DNA of 64,000 nt from Parabacteroides gordonii MS-1 = DSM 23371 (GTDB lineage Bacteria; Bacteroidota; Bacteroidia; Bacteroidales; Tannerellaceae), in assembly GCF_000969825.1 (NCBI RefSeq), contig NZ_KQ033921.1, positions 124,001 through 188,000 on the forward strand, written 5' to 3'. Below the pieces are notes generated by a model that made no database searches, was not told the origin of the DNA, and worked only from the letters and a program-made list of their open reading frames with translations. Both the position numbers and the translations under genes were made by a program. Below are positions 12,394-19,697 of this stretch, in pieces. Position 1 is the first letter of the stretch. Each line of letters starts with the position of its first letter.

Positions 12394-12672
12394 CTATTTT
12401 TTATTTAATGCTTCAAGTAACATCTTACCCGGTTTGAACTTCACGCTGTTGCGTGCAGGAATAACGGTCGGCACACCGTTTTTCGGATTACGCCCGGGTC
12501 GTTCTGCCTGTTGCCAAAGAGTAAATGTCCCGAAGCCCAACAGCATAATAGTTCTTTCTGTCAGAATCTCCTCTTCTAGAATTCCTTGGAAAGAATGAAT
12601 AAAATCTCGCGCCTGCACCTCCGTAACCGACATGCGAAGGGCTATCTTTTTTACTAAATCTGTTCTGTTCAT
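12394..12672 (-). CDS. HU family DNA-binding protein
   Basis: A 92-residue histone-like protein. It begins MNRTDLVKKIALRMSVTEVQARDF and carries the beta-arm signature GFGTFTLWQQAERPGRNPKNG followed by PARNSVKFKPGK. It should bind and bend DNA as a dimer. It lies 29 bp downstream of the fimbrial anchor gene on the same strand, so it may be the last gene of that operon. Such a protein could assist the nearby recombinase, but that is only a guess from position. No convincing gene lies between it and the MATE gene. Confidence 0.93.
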   Translation of the reverse strand: MNRTDLVKKIALRMSVTEVQARDFIHSFQGILEEEILTERTIMLLGFGTFTLWQQAERPGRNPKNGVPTVIPARNSVKFKPGKMLLEALNKK

Positions 12673-14878: not shown

Positions 14879-17281
14879 TTAATAGGCCCATACTTTATGC
14901 TCCCTTATACACCGTACCCTTAACAAATCCGTCTTAGTCCCGTGAACAGGGCCACCCGCCGAACTGCCACCCTCTTTAAGCAGCACTCTATATATCAATT
15001 GTTCAGGTCGCGTCTGCTCTTCTGAACTGGTCGAGTATACCTGGTTGTTATCCGGATACCTTACATTTTGATTCTTCAAATCATTGTGCGTAGGCATAAA
15101 CCAGTTGGCCTCACTCTCATCGATTATACCGTCACCATTCATGTCGCGGTTCTTTTCATGACAATAGCGTGATGCCGAACTTTTATAGATAGGGTGATAA
15201 ATATTTTCAGCTGGATCAGGATAAAAATATGGAGCAACAGTCGGTTTAGTGTAATTGGGTATCGGACCGGTACCTCCTGTTTTACCATTACCATACATCT
15301 CCCGATAAGTTTTCCCGAAGTTTCTCGGCAAACGAGAGTTTATGCCTTCCCAGTTTACCTCAACATCGGTATAAACTGTATGTGCTGTCATTAATTGGCC
15401 ATGCTCAGTCTTGTGGCCACTAGGTCCATCATATACAACAGTTCCTGAATATCCCCATTGCATCGTGGTCGTTCTCTGCAGCGATGGATCAATACCCGGA
15501 TTCAGTGCCAGTGCAGCTTCCTCGATCCTTTCGAATACAAATGTTCTCTTGCCTACTATTCTTAAAGCAGTTTCGTTAAAAATAACCGGGTAGGTATTTA
15601 TCATAGCTGCTGTTTGATCCCCCTTCGGAAACAAGTCTAGATATCCCGTCTGAGTAACAATATAGTCTTTCACTTCAGGCCTTGATCCATTACCGCCTTT
15701 ATAGAACGAGAAACGGATAGTGGCGCTGCGGGTACCGTCAGGGTCGTCACCGTTCTTAAAGAAATCATCGGCATAAACATATAGTGTATTGTTCGTAACC
15801 GTCACACCAGAAAAAGGAATATCCGTAATCTTATAACACATGCGGTAGGTTGCATCGGCATATGTCATCGCATCGTCGTCCTCTTGTCCCTCGGGAATGG
15901 TATTCCAGCCACCCTTATCAGCCAAAGCCGCCCTCACACTTTTGTGCGGGATATATTTGGCACGGACAAAGCTGCCGGGCTCACCCGTCTGTTGCTGCCA
16001 CTCATCATGCGGAGCTTCCTGCTTCACCTGGTGAAACATCAGATTCAGGGGTGATATTTTAAGCCATGTGGCTTCAAAACCGTCCTCGTCATAAGTTCTG
16101 CCATCCGCATCCACGATCTCCATTGTAGCCACTCCTTCGGAAGCATGGATACGCATTGGGCGGAAGTCCGGATGACAGTCCATATCCAGGTTATCCCCGT
16201 GATCTACCCTGAAATCGCCAACGTAATATTCTACATTCGAATCCACATCAATGTCGTTGAGTCCATTTACCGTTACGTTAAAGGTGTAGTGATTGCCACG
16301 AACGATATCATAGTTGCTGTGATTGTCTTCCCCCAGATAGATATAGGCGGAAACCTGCTTGGTTTCGGATCCAAACTTGTGCATCGCGCTGATCAGGATG
16401 GCTGTAGCGCGCTTGGGTTTAAACCAGGCTTTCCCCTTATCATCTTCATCATCAAATGCCATTTCCGGATATTGAGCCTCTTCCACAGGCAAAGCTCTAT
16501 CGACACGTCCCCCACGCCGGTTTTCGAACAAATAGAGTTCCTGAGTGACAGATTTGTTTTCCATATCAATTTCGTCAAACGGGTTATCCCCTCCTGTAGT
16601 AAGCCAATACTTAGCGTCGTTGTTGATCTCCGGATCAGGGTTTACGTCCCCGGTTGCTGGAAAAAGATAACTGCTTGTAGGAGCATCTACCACATCCCAA
16701 CCCAGCACAGTTACCTCCTGGTCTTCAGGGGTGTTGACTCTGACCTTCAGCGTGACCTTGGCTGCGAGGAATTTGAGTTCAATCGCGTCCGGTAACACGT
16801 TTTCCCCATCCTGAATATTCACATCCTCCGCATAGCCTGTCATCATTAACGGATTATCATCAAGCCCGAAACCAAGTTCAAGAGCAGCTACCGTAGCATC
16901 TTCGAGTTCCGGGTAGGTGTAGATGGCCTCCAGCCGGCTGTCAAGTCCATCCGCCACATTGGCAACGACACAGATTTTGCAGTTGCTACCCGAAAAAGTT
17001 TCTACATCCAGTGAAGTGCCCAGATCACCGGTGTATTTCCGGTTGGTCAAGATATCTCCTTGGTTGTTAAATATCATCACCCGCAGGCTCTCAATCTTTT
17101 TTTCCTTGTCAGGTGACATCGCCCGGGTCTTCCCGCTGCCCATCGTTGCCATATCCATTTTCAGACTTACCAGAGCCGGCTTGCCCTCCTTCACATTGCT
17201 GCCATTATTCCTTAATTCTTCATCAGAACATGATGTCGACAGCAATACTCCAAATAACAGTGTAATTATTATCTTTTTCAT
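14879..17281 (-). CDS. large fimbrial accessory/tip lipoprotein (DUF4906-like)
   Basis: An 800-residue lipoprotein (signal MKKIIITLLFGVLLSTSC). The N-terminal ~300 residues resemble fimbrillin folds (IESLRVMIFNNQGDILTNRKY, KICVVANVADGL, GNHYTFNVTVNG). A long C-terminal region follows, with the calcium-binding-like sequence DMNGDGIIDESEANWFMP near residue 730. I assign it by resemblance to DUF4906-containing accessory or tip proteins of Bacteroidales fimbrial operons. It is the first gene of the operon that continues with the shaft and anchor. A role in adhesion at the tip is inferred from size and position, not shown. Confidence 0.7.
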   Translation of the reverse strand: MKKIIITLLFGVLLSTSCSDEELRNNGSNVKEGKPALVSLKMDMATMGSGKTRAMSPDKEKKIESLRVMIFNNQGDILTNRKYTGDLGTSLDVETFSGSNCKICVVANVADGLDSRLEAIYTYPELEDATVAALELGFGLDDNPLMMTGYAEDVNIQDGENVLPDAIELKFLAAKVTLKVRVNTPEDQEVTVLGWDVVDAPTSSYLFPATGDVNPDPEINNDAKYWLTTGGDNPFDEIDMENKSVTQELYLFENRRGGRVDRALPVEEAQYPEMAFDDEDDKGKAWFKPKRATAILISAMHKFGSETKQVSAYIYLGEDNHSNYDIVRGNHYTFNVTVNGLNDIDVDSNVEYYVGDFRVDHGDNLDMDCHPDFRPMRIHASEGVATMEIVDADGRTYDEDGFEATWLKISPLNLMFHQVKQEAPHDEWQQQTGEPGSFVRAKYIPHKSVRAALADKGGWNTIPEGQEDDDAMTYADATYRMCYKITDIPFSGVTVTNNTLYVYADDFFKNGDDPDGTRSATIRFSFYKGGNGSRPEVKDYIVTQTGYLDLFPKGDQTAAMINTYPVIFNETALRIVGKRTFVFERIEEAALALNPGIDPSLQRTTTMQWGYSGTVVYDGPSGHKTEHGQLMTAHTVYTDVEVNWEGINSRLPRNFGKTYREMYGNGKTGGTGPIPNYTKPTVAPYFYPDPAENIYHPIYKSSASRYCHEKNRDMNGDGIIDESEANWFMPTHNDLKNQNVRYPDNNQVYSTSSEEQTRPEQLIYRVLLKEGGSSAGGPVHGTKTDLLRVRCIREHKVWAY

Positions 17282-17299
17282 CTTTCATTTTATTTGCTG

Positions 17300-17307
17300 C
17301 AAAGTAA
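17300..17307 (-). promoter_or_regulatory. possible -7 box of the fimbrial operon
   Basis: TTACTTTG on the minus strand differs at one position from TAnnTTTG and lies 19 bp before the first fimbrial gene. No good -33 element is seen. A weak core promoter would fit dependence on the upstream AraC-family activator. Confidence 0.3.
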
Positions 17308-17364
17308 GAGTTGTTTTTCAAGGGAGATATTACAAAAGTTTCCAATTCACATAAACAATCTGTC

Positions 17365-18294
17365 TTAAATCGTATATTTCCCTTGTTTTTCATCCATTAT
17401 CATATCTTTTCCAATACTTATTTCACCTGCAACAGCTTTTTCGATCAGCACAGTCGGGGTACATTTAAAATTGTGTTTGCAATAGGCCTGCAAATGTGAG
17501 AGGTTGTCAAAATCAAACTCGATCATCAACTGTTTGACTGTAATCCCGGGTTCAGCTGCTTTATTAATCATCCTGGTTAACTTTTTAATTGTCAGCCATT
17601 GTTTGGTGGTTATGCCAAACACTTCTCTGAATTTGGCATAAAAAGCCGATTTACTCATACAGGATAGCTCCATCAACTCTTTTGCCGATTTCACATTGCC
17701 ATAATTCTCCAGCACAAAGCGCTTAAACTCGAATGACTGGGAAAGTATCGGATAAAACAGCCCGGCTAGTTCCTCTTTACTATAAAAATAGCGCAGACAA
17801 AGAAAAAGCTCATTGTGTTTCGCTTCGTGCAGATGCCCGCAATTCGCTTTATATTTTAGATAACAAACCGTCAATTCGCAAAAGACATCAAACGGGTATC
17901 TTATCGGTAAAGGCTCAAAATTGTAATCCATGCTATCAGCCAACTCGGTCAAAAGTTGAAAATTAAGTTTCTCACAACTGGTAGTCGGTGCTTCAAAGGC
18001 AAGAGTCAATATCTGAACATCTTCTAGACATTCCCCACTTACCAGTGATGCCTGAGCAATTAAAAAAAATTCTCCCCCACTGATTATCCTGTTTTCCGAA
18101 AGATTATAATTTAATCGAATTTTCCCTTCCAGTATAATAACAAGGTAATTTTTCATAGTCTCCCGTTCCAGTTTCCGGGTTGATCCTTTTTTAAATTCCT
18201 GAAAAAAAAATCCCGTATCGATCTCTTTGAGATATTTCCCACAGGTCAGATGCTCATTTACATAAAGCAAATTAGCTTTCATCGTTTGTTTCAT
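17365..18294 (-). CDS. AraC-family regulator, probably of the fimbrial operon
   Basis: A 309-residue protein with an N-terminal sensor-like domain and a C-terminal AraC-type region of two helix-turn-helices (SAKELMELSCMSKSAFYAKFREVFGITTKQWL, then VKQLMIEFDFDNLSHLQAYCKHNFKCTP). It lies 83 bp upstream of the fimbrial operon on the same strand, so it is the likely activator. Its start (18294, or 18282 for MKANLL) is only 18 bp from the left inverted repeat of a 427-bp segment. Transcription of this gene would then depend on the orientation of that segment. It is more AT-rich than the core genes around it. Confidence 0.88.
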   Translation of the reverse strand: MKQTMKANLLYVNEHLTCGKYLKEIDTGFFFQEFKKGSTRKLERETMKNYLVIILEGKIRLNYNLSENRIISGGEFFLIAQASLVSGECLEDVQILTLAFEAPTTSCEKLNFQLLTELADSMDYNFEPLPIRYPFDVFCELTVCYLKYKANCGHLHEAKHNELFLCLRYFYSKEELAGLFYPILSQSFEFKRFVLENYGNVKSAKELMELSCMSKSAFYAKFREVFGITTKQWLTIKKLTRMINKAAEPGITVKQLMIEFDFDNLSHLQAYCKHNFKCTPTVLIEKAVAGEISIGKDMIMDEKQGKYTI

Positions 18295-18311: not shown

Positions 18312-18333
18312 ACCCTTATTTTGTAAATAAGGG
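18312..18333 (+). repeat. left inverted repeat of the switch
   Basis: This 22-bp repeat is identical to the reverse complement of 18717-18738. It is itself an imperfect palindrome: 9-bp arms CCCTTATTT and AAATAAGGG around the asymmetric centre TGT. That resembles a core site for a tyrosine recombinase. Confidence 0.85.
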
Positions 18334-18636
18334 AAACGGGCACTTTTTTAAAGATATACCGACTAATTAAAAGGAGATTTTGTTTATAAAGGCTGCTTTT
18401 TTTTTATGAAAAACAATGGAATATCAGCTATCAAACAGAATATAGTTGAAAAACGAGGTGTTATCAATAGTTAAAAACAAGGTTAGTCCTACCTGACTAT
18501 ATGCGTATTTTCGGATTATCACGAAAAACAGTTATTGCCTGGAAAAATTTATAAATAAATATGTAATTCAAGATATTTCTTTCTGCAATAGATAAATATA
18601 TCAGTAGAAACCACTTCTTTTTCTCACTTAATTCTT

Positions 18637-18644
18637 TACATTTG
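18637..18644 (+). promoter_or_regulatory. -7 box inside the invertible segment, pointing right
   Basis: TACATTTG matches TAnnTTTG. In the orientation shown it reads away from the AraC-family gene, towards the antisense of the recombinase gene. After inversion it would read into the regulator gene. A clear -33 element is not seen. Confidence 0.4.
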
Positions 18645-18716
18645 CAATAAAATATCTTTTACATCATGATTTGTAAGGTGTAATCATTTAATTAATAACT
18701 TATTACATGAAACTTA

Positions 18717-18738
18717 CCCTTATTTACAAAATAAGGGT
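18717..18738 (-). repeat. right inverted repeat of the switch
   Basis: The reverse complement matches 18312-18333 at all 22 positions. The repeat reaches the first base of the TGA stop codon of the recombinase (18738-18740), so an inversion would leave that reading frame intact. Confidence 0.85.
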
Positions 18739-19697
18739 CATGCCACCTTCACTAACAAATCCCCAACCGATTTGGTAATCATACTATTAGCCTCATTCAT
18801 CACCGATTGATTCAATTGCTTAAGATAAATACGTGTAGTATTTTCAGAGGTATGTCCGAGTGCCTGGCTGATAACAGCAATCGGAATACCACACAATAAT
18901 GCTTCGGATGCCCAAGTATGCCGGAAACGGTAAGTAGTCAACTGTATCGGGCTTATCAGAAATTGTCCGATCTCTTTCAAAGCTTCATTCTGGCATCTCA
19001 ATAGTGATTTATAAGTTTCATAAGAAGCATTTTCTTCTTTAAGCAACGGAAAGAGGAAAGGTGTATCTTCCTGCTTATATTTATCCAGTATAATCTTCAT
19101 CCCTTCTGTCATTCCGATACGTATCTCCGTTCCCGTTTTCCGACGATTGTAAATAATCTCTCCTTCCCTGATATTCTCCGGCTTAAGATGCACAAGATCC
19201 ACAAATGCCATCCCGCAAGCCATAAAACTGAACAGGCTCAGATCGGCTGCCATCTCCAGTTCAGGCCTGTCGTCCAACTTGAGTCCGGCAATTTCCTCCA
19301 TCACCTCACGCGACAATGCCCGTTTTGCCGTCGCTTGCTGTTTGATCTTCAATTTTGCAAAAGGCTTGCAATTCTTTACCTCTTCCGATCCATCAATCAC
19401 CAGATTATACATCGCCCTGAAATTACTCAGATAGGTATTCACCGTATTCACTTTCAATCCTTTGCTTTTAAGATAGGCTTCGAACTCCATCACAAAGCGT
19501 TGTGTCACTCTCCTGAGCGGTAGCCTCTTTCCTTCACAAAACAACTCCAACCAGTTTGTGGCCGCCCGATACAGATCTGCAGTACTATCCCTCCCATCCT
19601 GTCTTTTCCGCGTTATACACGCCCTAAAACAGGAAAACAAATCGGATACCATCATTACTCTCTCGTTTTTCTTTCTCATATCAAATCTATTTTTCAA
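18738..19697 (-). CDS. tyrosine recombinase, predicted invertase of the adjacent switch
   Basis: A 319-residue site-specific recombinase. It has an N-terminal SAM-like DNA-binding domain (ATNWLELFCEGKRLPLRRVTQRFVMEFEAYL) and a C-terminal catalytic domain. Visible catalytic residues are K in RRKTG, R259 and H260 in FRHTWA, H282 in LGHTSENT, and the nucleophile Y291 in RIYLKQL. The first catalytic Arg is replaced by Cys (C161 in MACGMAFVDL). That position is usually Arg, although some Bacteroidetes recombinases such as IntDOT also lack it. The gene has no neighbouring att-type direct repeats or conjugation genes, which argues for a local invertase rather than the integrase of a mobile element. 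Confidence 0.9.
   Translation of the reverse strand: MKNRFDMRKKNERVMMVSDLFSCFRACITRKRQDGRDSTADLYRAATNWLELFCEGKRLPLRRVTQRFVMEFEAYLKSKGLKVNTVNTYLSNFRAMYNLVIDGSEEVKNCKPFAKLKIKQQATAKRALSREVMEEIAGLKLDDRPELEMAADLSLFSFMACGMAFVDLVHLKPENIREGEIIYNRRKTGTEIRIGMTEGMKIILDKYKQEDTPFLFPLLKEENASYETYKSLLRCQNEALKEIGQFLISPIQLTTYRFRHTWASEALLCGIPIAVISQALGHTSENTTRIYLKQLNQSVMNEANSMITKSVGDLLVKVA

Follow-up and report, generated by a model that had tools for sequence, protein, structure and literature searches.

The window, by which we mean the whole stretch of 64,000 nucleotides analysed here, carries on its minus strand a tyrosine recombinase gene, a repeat, a 383-bp segment, a second repeat, an AraC-family gene and fimbrial genes, in this order (Table 1). 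The two 22-bp repeats ACCCTTATTTTGTAAATAAGGG are perfect inverted copies of one another and span 427 bp between their outer ends, which bears out the first-pass annotation on this point. Each arm is in addition a 9-3-9 palindrome by itself. The pair constitutes the window's sole perfect inverted repeat of at least 15 bp with a spacer of 50-1000 bp. Its origin by chance was ruled out by Markov controls: the longest perfect pair in first-order Markov windows (n = 200) was 17 bp, 0/200 reaching 22 bp, and local 600-bp Markov sequences (n = 2000) gave 15 bp at the longest.

Table 1. Features of the switch region and of the fimbrial genes, in window coordinates
Feature	Position	Strand	Basis or remark
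HU-family DNA-binding protein, end of the co-directional run	12394-12672	-	Pfam
Mfa2 family anchor, 291 aa	12702-13577	-	Pfam
FimA-like major fimbrial subunit, 375 aa	13671-14798	-	Pfam
Tip-like fimbrial protein, 800 aa, FimA N domain and DUF4906	14879-17281	-	Pfam
Gap between regulator and fimbrial genes, 83 bp	17282-17364	-	Holds TTACTTTG at 17307-17300, a possible promoter box
AraC-family regulator, 309 aa, HTH_18	17365-18294	-	Pfam, predicted structure
Left inverted repeat, putative recombinase site ACCCTTATTTTGTAAATAAGGG	18312-18333	+	Repeat search
Putative invertible intergenic segment, 383 bp between the arms	18334-18716	.	Repeats and related modules
TACATTTG, Bacteroidales-type -7 box, towards the recombinase as assembled (OFF)	18637-18644	+	Family position
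Right inverted repeat, perfect copy of the left one	18717-18738	-	Repeat search
Tyrosine recombinase, 319 aa, TTG start in the ORF list	18738-19697	-	Pfam, ORF list

The stop codon of the recombinase (TGA, 18740-18738) was said to touch the repeat, and its last base indeed coincides with the outer base of the right arm. When the segment is reversed in silico, this stop codon remains the same; the AraC start is situated beyond the segment, so that inversion would keep both genes intact, as had been proposed. The putative switch is placed directly upstream of a transcription-factor gene of the AraC family; the closeness of its start to the repeat is confirmed, the distance being corrected from 18 bp to 17 bases (start 18294). 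Between the repeats, the window ORF list contains no reading frame of at least 90 aa, and ATG frames of 22 and 17 aa are present. On the minus strand, the left repeat is followed by TTTTA and makes a terminator-like hairpin just ahead of the AraC start, a type of motif counted at chance level (1 found vs 0.9 in shuffles). This hairpin stands between segment and AraC gene in both orientations and would fall in the leader of an ON transcript. Its effect may be to shield the AraC gene from transcripts of the recombinase, or to attenuate the ON promoter.

The fimbrial operon announced behind the AraC-family gene is there, with FimA-like, FimA and Mfa2 genes downstream: FimA-fold subunits and an Mfa2 anchor are encoded in one co-directional run, as in the FimA/Mfa (type V) pilus operon. 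A protein collection, which gives no gene context, holds 26 relatives of the regulator, one being the window's own cluster, 24 showing 52-87% identity and one 33%. The predicted model of the protein (mean pLDDT 74.7) is strand-rich in its N part and helical in its C part. The structures closest to it in fold, over most of the model length, are ToxT, Rns and CsvR, which control pili or colonisation factors. They resemble the model in fold and differ from it in sequence (8-14% identity; TM by query 0.29-0.47), and their ranking is weak evidence because full-length AraC-family structures are few.

The locus belongs to a family of modules built as recombinase, palindromic repeat CCCTTATTnnnTAAATAAGGG, segment and second repeat. 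In the host genome (6.79 Mb), this repeat gave, at up to 2 mismatches, 33 matches on both strands vs 0 for the reversed control. A search with the 22-bp pattern, at up to 3 mismatches, gave 17 matches vs 2 in its control. The host genome has ten inverted site pairs, and in each of them a recombinase frame stops at one of the repeats or close to it. Past the far repeat lie fimbrial-type genes in four cases, polysaccharide-type operons in four (Wzy_C and ABC-transporter domains were found in one that was tested), the AraC gene of the window and an HU-DUF4469 gene (L055). One lone site, C1:1439003 with 2 mismatches, has neither partner nor recombinase. By eye, a central palindrome looks conserved despite sequence change in four polysaccharide modules of this genome (L050, L051, L053 and L054), where an operator or a hairpin is possible.

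On a wider scale, 12 of 38 genus genomes contain the exact 19-bp core (0 in the control), as do 14 of 118 family genomes (one control match); outside the genus it is present as single sites in G040 and G077. Site pairs were collected with up to 3 mismatches between the two arms, and a recombinase match, in some cases broken or partial, is present at all 32 paired loci collected, as well as at 25 of 28 further genus loci. Recombinase frames stop at the repeat or within a few dozen bases of it; at L148:2511-2523 and L155:2733-2745, the last recombinase codons and the stop are inside the site itself. Among the partnerless sites, no recombinase was found near G004:C1:1266926 and G010:C70:124061; the others are G001:C79, G021:C31, G021:C75, G021:C443, G012:C55 and five TTG sites of G002. 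In that genome (G002:C2), five sites with the TTG core, which is that of the window, form two clusters (L057 and L058, near 3.02 and 1.20 Mb), 1.8 Mb apart and in opposite orientation, amid near-identical, repeated pieces of a neighbouring gene and a recombinase. The arrangement looks as if distant sites had recombined.

What these modules would control can be read from the first gene downstream. In 18 of the 32 paired modules it is DUF3575-type, and in 8 it opens a polysaccharide-type operon. Two modules begin with a fimbrillin-like lipoprotein (called from Pfam matches under the curated cut-off), two with a 365-aa helix-turn-helix protein, one with AraC (the window) and one with an HU-like protein. 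The 365-aa protein, with several helix-turn-helix matches, belongs to two paralogous modules of G020 (L149 and L150), where a DUF3575 gene follows it. Judged from gene order, direct control of structural genes is thus the module norm and a regulator in first position the exception, the putative window switch being one of the few family members that face a regulator instead of surface genes. The exception nevertheless recurs, in the window, in the G020 pair and in AraC modules with a second repeat described below.

The window recombinase has a Phage_integrase domain and an intact frame. Lys187, Arg259 and His282 are present in all 32 aligned module recombinases and Tyr291 in 31 of them. Arg I is replaced by Ala, Pro or Thr in 32/32, the XerA stretch GLRVSEL aligning with G[MI][PAT]F.D, and the His of the HxxR box by Tyr, again in 32/32. 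IntDOT likewise has no Arg I. In a tree of 32 of the 36 recombinases (three under 300 aa were left out and one was not found), the core type of the repeat tracks recombinase phylogeny, with 12 changes against a shuffled mean of 21.0 and 0/200 shuffles as low, near-copies contributing to this signal. The window recombinase adds nothing to the test because it sits on a long branch as sole representative of its core type.

A promoter-like box is shared by the family. A TAnnTTTGCA-like sequence, agreeing at 7 or 8 of its 8 letters, points outward at 60-115 bp from the recombinase-side end in 26 of 29 modules, vs 1/29 at the mirror position next to the operon, in a module which also has the recombinase-side box (random expectation about 5%); 3/29 have no such box, and three of the 32 modules, under 300 bp, were left out of the count. 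Since the box is directed away from the operon in these 26 modules, we read the assembled state as OFF. The window has TACATTTG at the common position, the -33 box being poor. Judged by the -7 box, every one of the ten modules of its genome is assembled OFF, some with weaker matches on the other strand; the three short modules comprise two in the OFF state and G015, which is ON. Inversion of the window segment in silico yields one exact TAnnTTTG towards AraC where there was none before, the sole one in this stretch, 119 nt upstream of the AraC gene. Matches to an E. coli-type promoter between 17200 and 18800 numbered 5, vs 7.0 in shuffles, and were set aside.

Evidence that such segments flip comes from comparison between species. 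G015 and G026 carry one and the same locus (DNA identity about 80% in the recombinase gene and 82% in the downstream gene), and their segments of 153-154 bp are oppositely oriented: the alignment score is 68.0 inverted vs 8.3 in the same orientation, the latter slightly above the random maximum of 5.9 (n = 1000) and far under the inverted score. A further case involves another repeat, CTCTTnCCAAGAGG, found as perfect pairs of 19-21 bp at AraC-type genes of G032, G010 and G036. These pairs end 49-55 bp ahead of where the match in the AraC frame begins, and a recombinase 31-35% identical to that of the window is nearby. The AraC-driving segments of G010 and G036 are again opposite (23.5 inverted, -16.3 same, random maximum -0.6, n = 1000), with the box towards AraC in G010 and away from it in G036; the flanks beyond the segment are unlike, so orthology holds for the AraC side only. 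In G032, the repeats do not enclose the box, and a promoter flip does not fit there. The second core CTCTTNCCAAGAGG gave 19 matches in 38 genomes vs 7 in the control and is for this reason too short to count; its pairs occur at three loci only. In a scan of 30 of the 37 AraC-type matches, 5/30 loci had a perfect upstream pair of at least 13 bp (window, G032, G010, G036 and L063). L063 (G022) shows a different repeat, a 24-bp perfect one containing TGCAAAGGTA, the promoter box backwards, 292-464 bp upstream of the AraC-type gene. L068, one of the 30 and at a contig start where the scan coordinates do not apply, had no upstream repeat pair in a separate check either.

At the window locus itself one orientation was seen; among the 38 genus genomes the locus exists in its own genome only, and regulator queries against contigs of named species, in which records nearest to this genome may be missing, did not find it. 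Three contigs (G001:C79, G021:C31 and G021:C75) end 78-94 bp past their site, near the place of the promoter box. We did not take these ends to indicate reads of mixed orientation, since a break of that kind would be expected at the repeat itself. A mobile origin was rejected as far as plasmids and viruses are concerned: 2501 bases had no plasmid match by megablast and viral contigs contained no exact copy of the 22-bp repeat. The single orientation would also be expected if the palindromic repeats were protein-binding sites or transcript hairpins of attenuator type around a segment that no longer inverts. The arms lend themselves to such a role, as one alone folds as RNA at -7.9 kcal/mol and the left one continues, on its AraC side, into a terminator-like tail. 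Against it stand the homologous segments found in opposite orientations between species, the recombinase present at every paired locus, the core that follows recombinase lineage and the intact recombinase frame of the window, and we regard this explanation as very improbable. The invertible promoter of the first-pass annotation is well supported by family layout, box position, the match of lineage and core and the two homologous loci with opposite orientations, even though a single orientation was met at the locus itself; the segment very probably flips back and forth.

We therefore do not depart from the idea of a phase-variation switch, and propose the following course of events as likely overall. 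The segment 18312-18738 would carry one outward promoter box, and the adjacent tyrosine recombinase would probably recombine the two palindromic repeats and so flip it. As assembled, the box aims into the 3' end of the recombinase gene, the OFF state; once flipped, it would drive the AraC-family gene, the ON state. The AraC protein would then activate the FimA/Mfa2 operon, with a possible addition from read-through.

The last step is the one where another scheme competes. AraC could be the first gene of the operon, with an ON promoter reading through into the fimbrial genes and a regulator that is an autoregulator, a fine-tuner or active elsewhere. The genes are co-directional, and their 83-bp gap has no terminator match and is no more stably folded than shuffled sequence, so that all of them could be on one transcript; moreover, direct control is what the family generally suggests, with a DUF3575 or polysaccharide-type first gene in 26/32 modules. 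The same gap holds TTACTTTG, a possible separate promoter, and a regulated second promoter fits it as well as read-through does. In G010 and G036, the gene after AraC is convergent and the switch would reach the regulator alone. The AraC gene of G036, with an invertible promoter box, is convergent with the recombinase and adjoins a gene run with a FimA and DUF4906 gene, which is the domain pair of the 800-aa protein of the window. Read-through being impossible in this arrangement, any control of fimbriae by that switch would need to pass through the regulator. We give direct read-through control at the window a substantial chance, well short of even. The two-tier claim, in which the switch acts through an activator, is partly supported, by the recurrence of regulator-first modules, the G036 layout, the position of the gene and, weakly, the fold, and is weakened by co-directionality and the gap without a terminator match; control of the fimbrial genes by AraC through the switch is plausible.

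Another possibility concerns the OFF state. The box points outward at the recombinase end in 26/29 long modules and the recombinase frames stop at the repeat or close to it, a disposition in which the OFF promoter could mainly silence its own recombinase by antisense RNA into the 3' end, OFF becoming self-stabilising and ON short-lived. It is the layout that suggests this brake, and the OFF excess would be explained equally well if culture selects for OFF cells. A comparable bias is described for Tsr19/BF2766 of B. fragilis, a local tyrosine recombinase beside the invertible promoter (IVp-I) of a surface locus, the EPS or large-capsule operon: this promoter was OFF in all three genomes compared (PMC3090145) and in culture and most tested faeces, while this recombinase has a second promoter, at a distance, which in broth is mostly ON (PMC4747536), a point against the brake. 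We consider the antisense explanation unlikely. For B. fragilis, the same source reports less transcription where more repeats lie between promoter and genes (PMC4747536).

With respect to known systems, the window would differ from Tsr19, which it resembles by description, in that the Tsr19 switch faces surface genes directly and the window switch an AraC gene (PMC4747536). A review mentions phase-variable fimbria-like surface proteins associated with tyrosine recombinases (PMC12632263). Capsule loci of Parabacteroides and other Bacteroidales likewise associate recombinase genes with invertible promoters before surface loci, but the targets there are not regulators and the quoted repeat, GTTCGTTTAA, is a different one (PMC12118408, PMC11892184). 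Mpi-type capsule promoters of Bacteroides, the same order, also invert in front of surface loci; such a system was rejected for the window because it relies on a serine invertase and ARACGTTCGTN repeats (PMC8375218), whereas the adjacent recombinase is tyrosine-type by Pfam and the repeat is another one. Invertible promoters driving a regulator are known in E. coli. In the UPEC systems hyxS/hyxR and ipuS/ipuR-upaE, a transcription-factor gene is driven by an invertible promoter that lies near a tyrosine recombinase, and at ipuS this gene shares an operon with an adhesin; these regulators are however LuxR-type, the ipuS repeats measure 7 bp and the role of IpuR is left undefined (PMC6083910). 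The literature searched, mainly open-access and without the 2019 invertible-promoter survey, yielded no invertible promoter driving an AraC-type fimbrial regulator in Bacteroidales, a weak negative.

More broadly, one may speculate that regulator-facing fimbrial switches arose at least twice in the genus, in the CCCTTATTnnnTAAATAAGGG and CTCTTnCCAAGAGG families, with the OFF promoter acting as an antisense brake on its own recombinase and OFF as a self-stabilising state. As a whole this scenario is rather doubtful. Within it, the presence of two repeat and recombinase families before fimbrial regulators would make fimbriae bistable in trans through the AraC activator.

If it is the regulator that the flip controls, and not the structural operon, a single event can switch several loci at once. 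Regulator-driven expression would also add sensing, through a possible AraC ligand, to chance, ON then being necessary and not sufficient. The ten modules of a single genome, together with the two repeat families found in the genus, make a natural set for the study of recombinase-site pairing. This family of modules equally allows one to ask why nearly all of them are assembled OFF, and whether surface states are set independently or in a concerted way.
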